A stretch of DNA of 48,035 nt from Crocinitomicaceae bacterium (GTDB taxonomy: Bacteria > Bacteroidota > Bacteroidia > Flavobacteriales_D > Crocinitomicaceae). The notes under the pieces are model-generated. The model was given only the letters and a program-made list of their open reading frames with translations, was not told the DNA's origin and made no database searches. Position numbers and translations under genes: made by a program. Below, piece by piece: positions 27,870 through 35,886 of the stretch; position 1 is the stretch's first letter, and each line of letters opens with the position of its first letter. The stretch spans positions 1 through 48,035 of the forward strand of contig JAQWFQ010000028.1 of the NCBI GenBank assembly GCA_029238665.1, in the 5' to 3' direction.

Positions 27870-28424
27870 ATGAGAAAATTAATTTTACTAATCTTAGTAG
27901 TATCAACAACTACAGGAGTTTTTGCTCAAAGGCAAGAAAAAATAAATTTGAATTTGACAAATGCCCTGGTAATTGGACAGATGGATAAAACAGAAGATCG
28001 TTACTCATTGGAAATTAACACGACTGAATTAATGAACGCTTATGGAGTGAAAGCAATTCCTTCGTTGAACGTCATGAAGCTGGGGGGAGATGCCTTGGTT
28101 TTAGCGTCTGATTCTATCTCAAAATTAATGCAGGCCAAAAACATTGATACCTATGTATTGGTCAGCGTTAGAGGCTTTGATCGGAAATTTAAAGTCTCAG
28201 GCCTTAAAGACAATTTGGAAACAGCCTTGGGCTTAAGCAGTTTATTTGGACTGTACCGCGCGGATATTGTTTCCATTAGTTTTGAATTTAAGTTTTTTAG
28301 AGGTGGTAAATTGATTTACTCTGACATGGTTAAATGTGGAAACATTGGTGACAGGGATACCGTAATAAAGCGTTTCCGTAAGAAAGTGGAGAAACGAATC
28401 GTGAAGAAGTGGAAGAAACAATAG
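27870..28424 (+). CDS. Secreted hypothetical protein
   Basis: A 184-aa protein with a Sec signal peptide, MRKLILLILVVSTTTGVFAQ, cut after VFA. The mature region is alpha/beta-like: KINLNLTNALVIGQMDKTED, a helical stretch (ISKLMQAKNIDTYVLVSVRG), ETALGLSSLFGLYRADIVSI and a very basic C-terminus RFRKKVEKRIVKKWKKQ. The opening (new strand, then GQMDKTEDRYSLEINTTELM) suggests a periplasmic domain like those that bind nucleotides or lipids, but I do not recognise the family. Its terminator lies 45 nt downstream. Confidence 0.68.
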   Translation: MRKLILLILVVSTTTGVFAQRQEKINLNLTNALVIGQMDKTEDRYSLEINTTELMNAYGVKAIPSLNVMKLGGDALVLASDSISKLMQAKNIDTYVLVSVRGFDRKFKVSGLKDNLETALGLSSLFGLYRADIVSISFEFKFFRGGKLIYSDMVKCGNIGDRDTVIKRFRKKVEKRIVKKWKKQ

Positions 28425-28468
28425 TTATCCTTTATGATGACACCTTAAACGCAGAACTTGTATCAAAC

Positions 28469-28502
28469 AAAAAAGAACCCTCAACTTGAGGGCTCTTTTT
28501 TT
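28469..28502 (+). terminator. Intrinsic terminator after the secreted protein gene
   Basis: CCCTCAA / TTGAGGG, extended by AAAAAAGA / TCTTTTTT with one internal A-C mismatch, forms a long hairpin with T-runs; it could act in both directions. The left inverted repeat begins 5 nt after it. Confidence 0.85.
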
Positions 28503-28506
28503 GTTT

Positions 28507-28563
28507 GTGTGTTACAATTCCAAAAGTATACCCTCCATTGCTCAAAGGTGATGTATCGTCTTA
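28507..28563 (+). repeat. Left copy of a ~57-bp inverted repeat flanking the DUF5916 segment
   Basis: Positions 28507-28563 match the reverse complement of 31669-31727, with four mismatches and one 2-nt gap. An identical core runs from ACAATTCC through AAAAGTATA, followed by CCTCCATTGCTCAAAG. Each copy abuts a terminator hairpin of the gene outside it. Directly after the left copy begins coding sequence of a broken paaD, so the repeat end coincides with a homology breakpoint. Confidence 0.85.
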
Positions 28564-28778
28564 TGAAATACATACCTCGATAGCACCAGCTTGGACCACG
28601 GACTGGATGTCTGAATCCGGTAAAAATAAGCTAAAGGATTGCGGAATTTCTCCTCCTCAAGATGAGGCAGATAAATCTGTTTTGTTTGGTGAGCCAATTT
28701 GGAAGCATTGCTTGCAAGGCTCACTACCAATGCAAAAAATGCAGAGAGCCTTTTGATTATTTCAAATGCCTGAGATAG
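28564..28778 (+). pseudogene. paaD: Remnant of paaD (phenylacetyl-CoA epoxidase subunit PaaD), 3' end only
   Basis: Translation gives EIHTSIAPAWTTDWMSESGK, then NKLKDCGISPP up to about 28670. After a +1 frame change near 28670-28690 it gives SQFGSIACKAHYQC and KKCREPFDYFKCLR before a stop at 28776-28778. These are the middle and C-terminal blocks of PaaD/PaaJ, the iron-sulfur/maturation subunit linked to the phenylacetyl-CoA 1,2-epoxidase. The N-terminal half is absent, and the region that normally carries CPxCxS between the two blocks (roughly 15-20 residues) is missing, so both a 5' truncation and an internal deletion occurred. No other paa gene lies in the window. The fragment points inward, convergent with the DUF5916 gene, whose stop (28762) lies within it. 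Confidence 0.8.
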
Positions 28779-31215
28779 GCTTTTTCTTAAGGGATTGGCT
28801 ATCGAACCAATAAATAACTTTTAATGACAAGGTGTTAATTGGGCCGTTTTGGAGCGTATTATTTAAGGTTTCCCAATAGCGTTGCTCAACACTGGAATTG
28901 GAGGTAAAAATAGAGTTTTTCCAAACGAAATTCAGTTCACTTCCAGGAAGGAAAACCCATCGAAGAAGCATATCAATTGTAAATGCATTATAGTTGATGT
29001 CATATGCAGACATTCCATTAATATCATTACCTGAATAATCTTCAAGTGGATTCAGTAATCCGTTGTCTAACAATTCGTAAAAGCTATTGTATTTTATTTT
29101 GGCATTGTAGTGTCTTAATCTAAATGTCATACCCAATCGATTCGTGATGGTATAATCAACACCAAGAGATTGTTCGTTGGTCAATCGATCTCGATTTCCA
29201 AATAAGATACCGTTAAATGAATCAACCGGGTCACCAAAATTTACCGCGTAACCCTCACTATTGAATTGGAATTTTTGTTTCCACTCATGAATTAAAAATA
29301 GCTGGTTACTTAATCTAAATCGAAATTCAAGGTTATAATTCCACTCCCACCAATCTCCTCTTTGCACATCAACATACCCTAGGCGTGCATCTACCGCAAT
29401 TCTCTTCTGGTAGTTTGACGAGAACCATGCACCCATGTTGGTCCAAATCGGCCTTACGTATTTGTATTCCCCTATATTCTGTCCTCTTGGTTCAAAAAAG
29501 TCATTGTTCTCCATTAAGGCGCCATTGAAGTTAACCCCCCATGCATTGAATGATTTGGAAACCATAACTGCTCTTGAGTTCCAGAAAGCTCCTCCAAATA
29601 GATTTGGCGCATACAGCCTTTCATAATTGATTGAAAAGTTACTTTGAAACTTATTTAAGTTCCAGAAGTTTGGTTTAAAGTTTCGATAACCGACATTTGC
29701 CTCTGCCACACGACTGTTATTAGCCCTTAAAAACCCGAGATCATTGGGATCATAGGTGTCAGATTCCTCGTAATATTCAGTCCAAAATGTAAAATCTCCT
29801 CTTTGTTTTCCTAATTCGATGCCCCATGTATGTCCTAAAGAGGTTTGCGTACTTTCTAGAATAGCTGATAAAACTCCCTGCCCAGAAATATAATAGTCAT
29901 TGTTTTTGGTGTTGAAGCTTGCCTTCAGTCCGGATACATTTGCATCGTAGAAGTCTCCAGAACGCCAAACATTCGTATTCGTAAAGGTCAAAAAGCTATT
30001 ATTTTTTAGGTTTTGGTCCAAAACTAATACATTATAATTGCTTAAAGGGCTAATTGTAATGTCTCGCTCTGTACTTGTTTCACTATCAATTGCCTTTCCT
30101 GTTTGTATAGCGGTAATTCCATTGAACACAGCTATTCCCAGCCCGTTATTAAGTCGTCCAGAAATTTTACTTGCATTTATTAAGGGCACCGAATTAGGAA
30201 TTTCTTCCAGGTATTCATTGCTGTTTAATTGACTTTCATAAACCCTTGAAGGCGTTTGAACTCCAATACGTCTGCTATAAAAAAGCTCTGATTTTGTAAA
30301 AAGTTCCGTCCCTTCTGTAAAAAATTGTCTGTTTTCGTTGAATTCTATTTCAAATGGGCTAATATTCAAAACTTGATTGTCAAAAACAACTTGCCCAAAA
30401 TCAGGAAGCAATGTGACATCAATCGTAAAAGCTTCATTGATTCCATATTTGATATCCATTCCCCCATTGAAAGACGATAGCGTTTCTGAGTCTTTTGAGA
30501 AGTTAACATAACTTGAAAGAAAGGGTATAAAAGCTAGTCTTAATGGAGGAGAGATATTCTTAACTCCTTTTACTTTTCCACTCTCTAATAAATAGTTTTC
30601 CAAGTCTGGATTCACTGTATTCCAAGTATTTTCCTCTCGAAGTCGGCTGATTTGTCGTCCAAAATTAATATTCCAATCCTGAACATTTGATTTTGGGAAA
30701 CGAAGTGCTGAGTACGGAATCTTAAGCTCAGCGAACCAACCTTCGGCATTTATTTCGGTTTTACTTCGCCAAACAAGGTTGAGAAGCTCGTTATAGTCAC
30801 CATCGAATATTTTTGAGTCGATCTGCACACCCCGGCTTGTGATTCCAAACGAAAATCCATTTTGACGATCATTGTACGTATCAATGAAAATGACGAACAT
30901 ATCTAGGTTTGGATTGAAGTCATCTCTCTCGGACAAGACGCGTGAAACTGAATCTGGGTTATCAAAACACTTAACTCCAACATATAAAGCCTCTTGATCG
31001 TATAATATTGCTACCTCTGTTGGTTTGGAGGGTTTGTTTCCCGGCACAGGTTTGAGCTGTGTGAAATTTGAAGACCAATTTGCATTACTCCAAGAATGCT
31101 CCTCGAAATTGGCATCTAAAACGATATTCTGCTTTATTCTTTTGGCTTCGATTGTTTTTTGCCCGAAACAATTCTGTACAGCTGTCAAAGAGATTATTAG
31201 TAGGAGCCAATTCAT
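28762..31215 (-). CDS. DUF5916 protein with N-terminal CBM9-like domain (secreted, membrane-barrel type)
   Basis: An 817-aa exported protein. The start at 31215 (MNWLLLIISLTAVQNCFGQ, signal peptide cut after CFG) is chosen because a full promoter lies at 31234-31263, inside the longer open frame. Residues about 20-200 form a family 9 carbohydrate-binding-like domain (AKRIKQNIVLDANFEEHSW, ALYVGVKCFDNPD). The rest is the DUF5916 region, with LPDFGQVVFDNQVLNISPFE, EFNENRQFFTEGTELF and FYSRRIG, and many aromatic-rich alternating strands as in an outer-membrane barrel. Function unknown; some relatives sit near peptidases or glycan genes. It lies within a pair of inverted repeats and ends antisense inside a paaD remnant, so it looks like imported or moved DNA. 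Confidence 0.9.
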   Translation of the reverse strand: MNWLLLIISLTAVQNCFGQKTIEAKRIKQNIVLDANFEEHSWSNANWSSNFTQLKPVPGNKPSKPTEVAILYDQEALYVGVKCFDNPDSVSRVLSERDDFNPNLDMFVIFIDTYNDRQNGFSFGITSRGVQIDSKIFDGDYNELLNLVWRSKTEINAEGWFAELKIPYSALRFPKSNVQDWNINFGRQISRLREENTWNTVNPDLENYLLESGKVKGVKNISPPLRLAFIPFLSSYVNFSKDSETLSSFNGGMDIKYGINEAFTIDVTLLPDFGQVVFDNQVLNISPFEIEFNENRQFFTEGTELFTKSELFYSRRIGVQTPSRVYESQLNSNEYLEEIPNSVPLINASKISGRLNNGLGIAVFNGITAIQTGKAIDSETSTERDITISPLSNYNVLVLDQNLKNNSFLTFTNTNVWRSGDFYDANVSGLKASFNTKNNDYYISGQGVLSAILESTQTSLGHTWGIELGKQRGDFTFWTEYYEESDTYDPNDLGFLRANNSRVAEANVGYRNFKPNFWNLNKFQSNFSINYERLYAPNLFGGAFWNSRAVMVSKSFNAWGVNFNGALMENNDFFEPRGQNIGEYKYVRPIWTNMGAWFSSNYQKRIAVDARLGYVDVQRGDWWEWNYNLEFRFRLSNQLFLIHEWKQKFQFNSEGYAVNFGDPVDSFNGILFGNRDRLTNEQSLGVDYTITNRLGMTFRLRHYNAKIKYNSFYELLDNGLLNPLEDYSGNDINGMSAYDINYNAFTIDMLLRWVFLPGSELNFVWKNSIFTSNSSVEQRYWETLNNTLQNGPINTLSLKVIYWFDSQSLKKKPISGI

Positions 31216-31233
31216 GGTGCAAAAATAGCTTTT

Positions 31234-31263
31234 CAAATTTATTGTACCAAACGAAAACGACAA
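31234..31263 (-). promoter_or_regulatory. Bacteroidota-type promoter of the DUF5916 gene
   Basis: On the minus strand, TTG (31263-31261), a 19-nt spacer and TAAATTTG (31241-31234) fit TTG-N19-TAnnTTTG exactly. The expected start of transcription falls just before the ATG at 31215. Confidence 0.7.
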
Positions 31264-31668
31264 TGTTGCATCGGATACGCAAATTCAAATGAAAACTTCA
31301 TCAAGTGGTAAATTTATTTCAGGGAGTGCAAAACAGGTAGTACTATCAGTGGATGACGTTATTCATATTTATCATAAAGCTTCAATTATTGAGGGTATAA
31401 TATCATTATAAATAGACATTACTTTCTATTTCTCTACTTATTATTCTAATCATTATTTCGTACCGTCTTTTGATACGTCGATTGAGCAGGAATAGATTTC
31501 CAAGAGAGGATTTTTGTACACTCTACAGTTCGGAAACAGATGAATTCATTGTAGATGTTGAATTTTATTTCTAATGTCCTATTTTATCTAAGTACAGTTT
31601 TGTATTTGGTCTTGTGAAGATATTGTAGCAGAATTAGCTTCGAAGAAATTTAGTTAGGGAGGTCATTT

Positions 31669-31727
31669 TAAGATACGATACATAATCTTTGAGCAATGGA
31701 GGATATACTTTTGGAATTGTAGCACAC
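31669..31727 (-). repeat. Right copy of the ~57-bp inverted repeat
   Basis: Reverse-complement partner of 28507-28563 (53 of 57 aligned bases identical, one 2-nt gap). It abuts the terminator at 31729-31760. Whether the repeat occurs elsewhere in the genome cannot be seen here. Confidence 0.85.
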
Positions 31728-31728
31728 A

Positions 31729-31760
31729 AAAAAAAGACCTCTGAATTAGAGGTCTTTTTT
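31729..31760. terminator. Intrinsic terminator, probably for the 31.8-32.6 kb membrane protein gene
   Basis: A perfect 12-bp stem (AAAAAGACCTCT / AGAGGTCTTTTT) with a GAATT loop and T-runs on both strands. It lies 21 nt past the stop of the minus-strand gene at 31781, so it mainly serves that gene, and could block plus-strand reading too. Confidence 0.9.
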
Positions 31761-31780
31761 ATTTACATTATAATAATTTA

Positions 31781-32620
31781 TTATAGTGATTTAAAAGGCA
31801 AGTATGGACCTTTAACCCACTTAACCAAGGTAGAAGCTAATCCGTATAAGAATTGATATATAACTACATTAATATAAAGATTAATTAACGTTATCACGAC
31901 TGCTATAAATGATCCGAATACCCATAGAGCACCTGCAACTGTCCAAGCTTCACCAGCTGATAGATCTAAGTTAGGATTCATCCATTTCGCCATCATATTA
32001 CTAAATTCTCCTAGGCCTATATTCTCCATTATTTCAAATAAGGTAGCGGTTCCCATTTTTCCAATTTCAGAGAGTTTAGCAAAACTCATTCCTAAGCTAT
32101 TACCAATATCAAGTGTTGTAATAAAACTTAATAAAGCTGAAGCTGCAGCAAATAATCCTACCATTGCTAAAATATACCCGCTTAATTTAATTAGCGCGAC
32201 TGGCAGGTCTAAAAAGATAAGGTTTATGATGTTGCTTTTGGAAGCACTAAGACCTTCACTTGTGTGTCTAATAATCATTGCAATCGGAAATGCAGCGCAA
32301 GCCCAAAGTAAAATAGAAATGAGTCCTCCTACCATACCGGCGGTATCAGCATTCCCCCAAAAAGCACCGTCGTTTGCCCACAGTGGTTTAAGGGTAGACC
32401 ATAATAATGTTAAAAGAACAATAAACGCAGTAATGCGGAATATTTGTCCAAGCCATTCGGCAATTCTGTTTTCAGAGTTTTCAATACAAGCAGTCCAGTT
32501 ATTCCAAGGAAGTTTTTCACTGATCATCTTTGGAGAGTCAAGTAATTGATTTGTCAATTCGTTAACTTTGTCCATCTTGTCCATCTTGTCCGTTGTGTCC
32601 ATTTTGTCCGTTGTTTCCAT
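31781..32620 (-). CDS. Hypothetical polytopic membrane protein with repeated N-terminus
   Basis: A 279-aa protein with about five transmembrane helices (FRITAFIVLLTLLWSTL, GLISILLWACAAFPIAMII, LSGYILAMVGLFAAASALLS, GALWVFGSFIAVVITLINLY and part of the next stretch). The N-terminus is a short tandem repeat: METTDK-MDTTDK-MDK-MDK, with four in-frame ATGs (32620, 32602, 32584, 32575) any of which could be used. The start is therefore uncertain by up to 15 residues. I recognise no family. It lies in the accessory region between the inverted-repeat segment and a methyltransferase. Confidence 0.7.
   Translation of the reverse strand: METTDKMDTTDKMDKMDKVNELTNQLLDSPKMISEKLPWNNWTACIENSENRIAEWLGQIFRITAFIVLLTLLWSTLKPLWANDGAFWGNADTAGMVGGLISILLWACAAFPIAMIIRHTSEGLSASKSNIINLIFLDLPVALIKLSGYILAMVGLFAAASALLSFITTLDIGNSLGMSFAKLSEIGKMGTATLFEIMENIGLGEFSNMMAKWMNPNLDLSAGEAWTVAGALWVFGSFIAVVITLINLYINVVIYQFLYGLASTLVKWVKGPYLPFKSL
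32566..32620 (-). repeat. Tandem repeat across the start codon (18-nt and 9-nt units)
   Basis: Two 18-nt units (ATGGAAACAACGGACAAA, then the same with two changes) are followed by two 9-nt units, ATGGACAAG and ATGGACAAA. All are multiples of three, so slippage would change N-terminal length without breaking the frame. Confidence 0.8.
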
Positions 32621-33577: not shown

Positions 33578-35886
33578 CTATATTCCGTACTGTAATTGAA
33601 CAAGAAATTGACGAGGAGGTTGAATATCCCCCGGACGACTCGAATATTCAGCATTTAAGAAATTATTCACAAGGATATTTATTCCGTATTTTTCTTTGAA
33701 GTGACAACCCATTCGTACATCCATAATTAAACTTCCACCTTTGTTTTTTGCTCGGTATTCCAAAAGTCCAGGTAAAATTTCTACCCCACCAATTTCAGCT
33801 TCAAAGACTTTATCAATGTTGTGCATGTAGCTATTATACCGCAGCGAGTAGCCCAGGTAAAAATTCTTGTATGTGCCTTGAACGTCTAGTTTAACAAGAT
33901 GCCTAAAACGATATTTTAGGAGCCCTGAAATGGTATCAGAAAACGTGTTTAAGTATTCAGCATCGGTGTTTAATGATACAGGGTTTAAATACGTATATCC
34001 AATTAAACTTTGTACATCAACTTGCTTGATCTTCCCTTGAGAGTTGAATGATAATTCAAGCCCTGTTATTCTTGTTTGTCCTGCGTTTTGTGCTTGAAAC
34101 CCAATGTAATTTTCAAAATAAGTTGGAGATTCTGGGTCTATTGAAATTACGGTTCCTTCTGGAACATAGGATCCAAATGTAAACTCAATCATGTTTTGAT
34201 ATTGATTCATGAAGCCTGAAATATCTAAGAATGACTTCCATTCTCCGACTTTAAATACTTGTTTTGCACCAACTTCAGCAGCCCATCCTTTCTCTGGGGT
34301 CAGCCCTGGATTTGAAAAAATTCGTACCCCTCCAGTTTGTGCAGAAACAAAACGTTCACCCACTGCTGGAAAACGGATGCCTTGCCCAAAAGAAGTTCTT
34401 AGATGTGTATTCGGTGCTAAGGCATAATGTAATGCCGTTCTAAAAACGGGATAGATAGGAATATCATTTTTTGTGCTCCATAGGTCAAATTGGGAATCTG
34501 GCTTTTGGGTGTCTTGCCTAAAGTATTCGAGTCGCATTCCTACAGTTGCATCAAAACGCTCTGTTTTTAGGTCGTATTGAGCATACCCTGCTACATTGAC
34601 CGAATTATGATTTCCATAGAGTCCAACACTGTTAATTCTATTTGCACTTGATGTAACCCCACTTATTATGCTGTGGCGTTTGTTCCATTTTTTTGAAAAC
34701 TGATAGTCACCATAATACATTTCTGCTTTAGATGCTGAGAAAACAGAGATAGCGCCGTCAAGAGAGATAGGACTGCCAATAGACACTAGGTAGTAGCGTC
34801 CTTTTAACTCATGTTTCGTATTGTCTTTCCCCAGGTATTTCAGGTATGGATCGACAGATAACCGAATTGAGTTTTCGATGGTGATTGATGAATTTGGGTT
34901 GGTTTGCGGACTTCCTCCTAAAGGTGTGTACCCTAAGGAATCACTCTCCCAAATGATAAATCGACCGACATCTTCAAATTGACTATTAAAAGCCACTCCC
35001 AATTTCAATTTTTTTGCCTTGTTGGGGTTATAAAAAAAACGTCCACTCAATCTTCCGCGGTTCTCTTTTTCACCATCCTTATACCCTTTTGTGAAATAGC
35101 CATTTCCTGCAATTGTAAAACCTACTTGATCGTACCGTTTACCGTAGTAAACATTCAACATGTTAATTGTTGGGTTTGACGACCACCACTTTAAAGAAGC
35201 TCGTCTAGGATTCCCATAAATTCCGGTTTGAAGTTTAACTTTTAATTGTCCGTCTCTGCCAGGCTCTTTAGGGTTTAATGAAATCATACCGTTTAAAGCC
35301 CCGCTGCCATATAAAACAGATGATGCTCCTTTGATAACTTCAACCTGTGAGGTTGATTCCAAGGGAATAGAATTCCATTGGTTAAAACTAACACACGACT
35401 TCCTACGCCATACGAATAACCACCGCCCCCGCGTATACTTACCTGCCCATCCATCACATAAACACCAGGGCTTTGATCTACAACCTGTTCTAAATTAACC
35501 AATCCTTTTTTATCGATAAAATCAGATTTAATGACCTCCATAGAAATGGCAACGTCTTCAATGTTTTGGGCCCTACGGCTTGCTGAAACAACCAATGTTT
35601 TGATTTCTTGAGCCATTGGAGAGAGGGTAACCTTAAGGTTGGTTTTATTGTGCTCTACTAGGATGGAGTCCGATTTGTAGTCTGCTAATGAAAAGTAAAC
35701 CCAAGTCGGAAAGGTGTTCACCTTTAGTTTAAACTGCCCATCAACATCTGTTCTTGTTGGGGCGCCTTTAGCGGTAAATACTTTTACTCCATAAAGTATA
35801 TTTTGTGTACCTTTTTCTTTAATTGTACCTTCAACTTGGGCAAATATAAGTGAAGGGAATAATAGGATAAGTATTAAGCCGCGCAT
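33578..35886 (-). pseudogene. TonB-dependent receptor disrupted by a small frameshifting deletion
   Basis: Two minus-strand frames together form one receptor. The N-terminal part (35293-35886) has a signal peptide (MRGLILILLFPSLIFAQ), a carboxypeptidase-regulatory-like domain (VEGTIKEKGTQNILYGVKVF) and the start of the plug (SMEVIKSDFIDKKGLVNLEQ, VDQSPGVYVMDGQVSIRGGG). The rest (33578 to about 35380) resumes with NSIPLESTSQVEVIKGASS, VLYGSGALNG and a full 22-strand-type barrel ending QFLVQLQYGI. At about 35371-35379 the frame changes and the usual 12-16 residues between RVLVLxNG and WNSIP are lost. Since conserved residues are missing, this is a real deletion more likely than a base-calling slip. 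The ligand is unknown. It lies about 100 nt downstream of ribE on the same strand. Confidence 0.8.

Follow-up and report, generated by a model that had tools for sequence, protein, structure and literature searches.

The window analysed here, a contig of 48,035 nucleotides from a Crocinitomicaceae bacterium, contains an inverted repeat that encloses a gene for a DUF5916 protein. The repeat had been predicted from the bare sequence, and a repeat search (seed 11) confirmed it as the sole inverted pair of at least 40 nt in the 48-kb window. The left arm occupies positions 28497..28565 (minus strand) and the right arm positions 31665..31735 (plus strand). When the region 28500-28590 was compared by BLAST with the genome of the organism itself (G000, a draft of 34 contigs with an estimated completeness of 98.45%), it matched itself and the right arm at 31675-31734 (92% identity over 60 nt, E = 1.4e-18); the remaining matches to the left arm were five stretches of 14-17 nt each. 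As had also been predicted, both arms adjoin hairpin terminators. The left terminator (28465..28506), which carries A- and T-tracts, forms the outer part of the left arm, and the right terminator lies at 31728..31764. With the terminators included, the arms extend over 28465-28577 and 31656-31764, and 94 of the 106 aligned bases are identical; the score of this alignment was 117, while those of 300 single-base shuffles did not exceed 24. The two terminators agree less well with each other than the inner arms do. Outside the repeat lie a gene for a 184-residue protein on the left (27870..28424, plus strand) and one for a 279-residue protein on the right (31781..32620, minus strand), neither of which belongs to a Pfam family.

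Between the arms, we found the tail of a paaD gene, the DUF5916 gene, a DUF493-like gene and a gene of 121 codons, in this order. The DUF5916 gene (28762..31215, minus strand), the one gene of the segment that has stayed intact, is an open frame of 817 codons whose product, of an outer-membrane type, consists of a weakly CBM9-like N-terminus and a DUF5916 domain (PF19313), consistent with the initial annotation. No paper on DUF5916 was found in the literature searched. The paaD fragment (28557..28778, plus strand) lacks its 5' part. It faces inward, is convergent with the DUF5916 gene and overlaps the stop codon of the latter by 17 nt, and its homology to paaD begins where the left repeat ends; apart from the length of the overlap, these features had been recognized previously, but an internal deletion of ~53 nt near position 28690, by which the frame is shifted, had been overlooked. 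Also unnoticed had been that positions 31229-31742 comprise two decayed genes. The first is a DUF493-like pseudogene (31229..31411, plus strand) that has lost its start together with about 20 codons and has suffered a further deletion of 21 nt. The second is a pseudogene of the 121-codon gene (31416..31742, plus strand), disrupted by stop codons and frameshifts, with the right arm of the repeat as its 3' end. We refer to the product of the 121-codon gene as a membrane protein on the basis of its hydrophobic start; no Pfam family was found for it.

The original prediction had provided the DUF5916 gene with a promoter of its own. This could not be established, as promoter-like sites numbered 27 in the actual sequence and 24.1 on average in shuffled sequences. 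About 0.1 kb of upstream sequence is absent relative to strain TMED16 (see below). At 31215-31260, the window has lost the greater part of the divergent promoter that precedes the DUF5916 gene in the donor-type loci, but the last ~30 nt before the start codon are conserved with these loci and carry a TATTTTTG box. We take this box to be an instance of the Bacteroidota -7 consensus TAnnTTTG. A new upstream half may derive from the DUF493-like remnant.

Judged from the sequence, both arms derive from the 121-codon membrane-protein gene: its 3' end, now decayed, makes up the right arm, and the left arm repeats in inverted orientation its final ~60 nt up to an A-tract. A search with the left arm in 200 genomes of the family gave weak matches, with 15 of the 200, the own genome included, reaching E <= 0.01. 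At three of the loci, all from the genus designated g22 (L009, L010 and L011), open reading frames indicated that the matching stretch was the 3' end of a 121-codon gene. The matches in the other eleven relatives were viewed by eye, with open reading frames listed for L018 only, and were set aside as chance. The arms enclose a gene in inverted orientation, and the site is empty in two relatives; they might be taken for the terminal inverted repeats of a mobile element, either a MITE or a transposon that lacks a transposase. However, the proposal of a MITE-like pair finds no support: the repeat stems from a passenger gene, of which it forms the coding 3' end, and occurs in two genomic copies. 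The 23-base core of the repeat had no exact match in the genome_contigs or viral_contigs collections, from which records close to our organism are possibly left out, and no phage match to the repeat was found. The statement that no transposase is present held for the 17 nearby window proteins covered by a Pfam scan (about 22.8-39.3 kb). We consider a mobile element extremely unlikely.

The origin of the segment became apparent from its closest relatives. The best match to the DUF5916 protein was that of Crocinitomicaceae bacterium TMED16 (locus L110, whose coordinates are those of genome G200), with 94% identity. On the DNA level, the window and TMED16 are 86% identical across a stretch of 2743 nt that extends from paaD into the sequence immediately preceding the DUF5916 gene, and 69% identical over 482 nt in the decayed part of the segment. 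The overlap between paaD and the DUF5916 gene is 17 nt in TMED16 as well. The donor-type gene order, in which a paaABCD operon converges on the DUF5916 gene and the latter is divergent to a DUF493-like gene followed by the 121-codon gene, was found in 8 of the 11 loci fetched (L110, L111-L115, L118 and L120); the match was confined to the DUF5916 gene in L116, L117 and L119. The 121-codon gene also follows the DUF493-like gene, divergent to a DUF5916 gene, in L009, L010 and L011. The suggestion that a piece of a locus in which a DUF5916 gene meets the tail of a paa operon had been brought in was thus borne out, and the locus resides in another genus of the Crocinitomicaceae. From the donor-type records, we infer that the organism is marine.

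A phylogenetic tree of DUF5916 with 51 rows was in agreement. Its input consisted of the best-scoring loci, namely the best 30 matches from the genus of our organism and the best 30 from a g22 search covering 77 genomes, less those whose longest ATG frame was below 780 residues (5 of 29 in the genus, G126 among them, and 4 of 30 in g22). The window sequence paired with G200 (99/94) and was enclosed by starred sets of 4, 5, 8 and 10 rows, in which every other member belongs to g22. Across a deep split from the window were 23 rows of its own genus, and G138 was the sole row of the genus grouping with the g22 side. Compared with TMED16, the DUF5916 gene displays a dN/dS of 0.058, and the branch leading to the window shows no excess: measured against the outgroup L118, dN is 0.048 for the window and thus not above the 0.051 of TMED16. 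Taking into account that dS to TMED16 is 0.62, the exact donor is not among the genomes sampled, and the original letters at the junctions and the lengths of the matches given below are therefore estimates. In GC content, the segment differs little from its flanks, and no signal was obtained from it.

On the other hand, the flanks of the segment are by their sequence DNA of the own genus. RsmA, IspD and the 184-residue protein are 90%, 81% and 81% identical, respectively, to their counterparts in G120, a member of the same genus. The gene for the 279-residue protein is present in 5 of the 34 genomes of the genus, the own one counted; its product is 61-63% identical in the four others, and matches in g22 did not exceed 38% (11 of 86 genomes). 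Comparison of gene order revealed an empty site: the genes for the 184- and 279-residue proteins adjoin in G120 and G165, and lie on different contigs in G150 and G083, so that adjacency was found in 2 of the 4 other carriers. The spacing between the matched stretches is about 95 bases in G120 and about 73 bases in G165, and a single hairpin terminator is visible in each. The bases that remain outside the insert in the window, terminators included, number 82 to its left and 45 to its right. Subtraction of one terminator of about 33 bases from these leaves a length close to the spacing in G120. As neither empty site harbours the repeat, the repeat arrived with the insert and was copied, and the proposal that the segment was brought in between two copies of a short repeat already present at the target is left without support. 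With respect to target duplication, the window has a terminator on each side of the insert, against one in the empty site. The two terminators differ, however, and are palindromic. A staggered cut may conceivably have duplicated the terminator. The right terminator and the bases toward the gene for the 279-residue protein bear the greatest resemblance to the single terminator of the empty site in G165. Dating by means of the two terminators was attempted and dropped, because hairpin stems can change together.

We then examined which DUF5916 gene is native to the genus. A DUF5916 protein at least 53% identical to that of G120 is present in 27 of the 34 genomes, G120 counted, with partial matches only in G171, G179 and G185. 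The protein from G120 is 39% identical to that encoded in the window. In G120 and G165, the native gene is situated between thrS and dnaN, both named from recognition of their sequences. In G000, the interval between dnaN and thrS (contig C25, locus L138, 8759-12014) is occupied by a gene for a Fib_succ_major protein and an open frame for a ComEC-type competence protein, and contained no convincing match to the DUF5916 protein of G120 (best E = 2.9). The sole match to the latter in the whole of G000 was the foreign copy, and the same copy was the only DUF5916 gene found there with two queries. In a genome estimated to be 98.45% complete, and with the slot itself covered by sequence, the native gene thus appears to be absent. 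Its loss is not unique to the capture described here, since four genomes of the genus (G000, G138, G126 and G156) have DUF5916 matches of at most 41% to that of G120. No match at E <= 1e-10 was detected in G181, G183 and G159, which are 76-82% complete. The copies in G138 (contig C80, L077) and G126 (contig C11, L078) are about 51-52% identical to that of the window and about 40% to the native type, and the copy in G126 has a stop within the match. As G138 groups with g22 in the tree, displacement of DUF5916 in this genus may have occurred more than once.

The other genes of the segment have native counterparts in G000. A native paaABCD operon is located on contig C19 with a stop-free paaD frame, and native DUF493-like and 121-codon genes are neighbours on contig C26, both without stops in their frames. 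In contrast to these, the foreign copies of all three are broken by stops, frameshifts or deletions. These results also bear on the possibility that the contig is an assembly chimaera of two organisms. The window is one contig of a draft in 34 pieces, and a foreign member of the family could have shared the sample. Nevertheless, two false joins would be needed at a single orthologous intergenic site, the passengers of the segment are decayed where those of the donor-type loci are not, and the genome has no native DUF5916 gene. We regard an artefact of this kind as very unlikely.

The results raise the strong probability that the locus reflects the capture of a segment, the displacement of a gene and an inverted scar that stems from the integration itself. 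An ancestor gained a piece of chromosome of ~3.1 kb of the type now found in another genus of the family, as identity, gene order and the tree show. The empty sites show that the piece entered where two convergent genes meet, in the region of their terminator, and to judge from the junctions, insertion apparently proceeded without flanking homology. The foreign DUF5916 would then have taken over from the native one, which presumes that the two do the same job. The passengers, namely the paaD tail, the DUF493-like gene and the 121-codon gene, have decayed, probably because native copies made them redundant. On joining, ~60 nt from the end of the 121-codon gene, perhaps together with the terminator next to it, would have been copied once more at the opposite junction and in the reverse direction. 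This copying may have entered at an A/T-tract and left at a short match in paaD.

The structure of the junctions is consistent with these steps. In both arms, the similarity to the 121-codon gene breaks off at one and the same A-tract, at a point where the donor-type genes continue for about ten codons, and beyond it both arms run into a terminator that itself begins with an A-tract. An A/T-tract is found at both outer junctions. At the inner left junction, about 4-9 nt are shared between the arm and the paaD sequence that follows it, an estimate given the unsampled donor. The left arm has neither the stop codon nor the 4-nt loss of the right arm; its frame is open and its A-rich end is longer. 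The copy therefore predates these lesions, and was most simply made at integration.

The main rival to an integration scar is a later copying event, in which the repeat would postdate the insertion. A replication template switch or a staggered-break inversion would then have placed a copy of the right junction at the left end of a segment already in residence. Inverted duplications at breakpoints have been proposed as a footprint of staggered breaks (PMC7584159), and the hairpin terminators on both sides offer inverted homology for a switch. However, the absence of the right-arm lesions from the left arm limits how late such an event could have been, and a staggered-break inversion would presumably require that a nick coincided precisely with the junction of the insert. 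We consider later copying rather unlikely, with a weight that none of the other rivals approaches. As to how the scar of integration arose, a rather unlikely and still tentative proposal is that the two sides of a break at the palindromic terminator, each ending in a T-tract, served as primers on one and the same A-tract of the incoming DNA. In that case, the end of a single donor gene would have been copied inward from either side, over ~3 kb in one direction and over ~60 nt in the other. If this were true, palindromic terminators would favour the capture of foreign DNA, and inverted repeats of this kind would provide a searchable signature of non-homologous acquisition.

We also considered the possibility that the arms recombine and flip the segment in order to control expression of the DUF5916 gene. 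Inversion by homologous recombination between the arms is possible in principle, as had been suggested, and with inverted arms of ~60 nt at 92% identity, recombination at a low rate is conceivable. However, the arms have diverged, and no recombinase was present among the 17 proteins scanned with Pfam, although one may act from elsewhere. The terminators lie outside both arms, and a flip would therefore change nothing obvious. Moreover, among the matches listed, DUF5916 and the 184-residue protein share a contig in none of the 33 other genomes of the genus. A programmed DNA switch is thus unsupported, and we assign it a very low probability. The locus also illustrates how integration may leave a gene flanked by inverted repeats, a scar that can be mistaken for a transposon or a switch.

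The locus resembles what is known as xenologous gene displacement in that the foreign gene nests within the donor clade (the pairing with G200 and the surrounding g22 rows), the native gene is missing and the redundant neighbours have decayed. It departs from it in that the foreign DUF5916 gene occupies a new site and not the place of the old gene, and in that the two DUF5916 types are only 39% identical, their equal function being presumed. With the donor-type locus, the empty site, the scar, the decaying passengers and the vacated slot all readable, it constitutes an unusually complete case of gene displacement between genera.

The locus also recalls illegitimate and homology-facilitated illegitimate integration (PMC3240628, PMC8116780), in which foreign DNA is joined to the chromosome at short matches, as may have been the case here. 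The genome contains, as noted above, an open frame for a ComEC-type competence protein, and the site is empty in the close relatives G120 and G165. The locus differs in its extra inverted copy and in that neither end displayed a homologous anchor.

Templated inverted insertions at DNA breaks in yeast (PMC11724301) join two pieces of one locus in opposite orientation at matches of 2-11 nt, with a median overlap of 50 bp between the inverted pieces in one mutant. They occurred mostly in repair mutants, and in the wild type with a transformed single strand of 69 nt. The locus in the window likewise combines two pieces of one locus in inverted orientation, but here the event would have taken place in a bacterium, with pieces of ~3 kb and ~60 nt. 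Among the titles and opening lines of abstracts searched, no templated inverted insertion in bacteria and no capture directed by a terminator was recognized, which does not prove that none has been reported.

Further along the window, a gene for a TonB-dependent receptor (33578-35886, minus strand) is divided into two overlapping frames, one for the plug part and one for the barrel part. The apparent cause of the split is either a frameshift or an error in sequencing.
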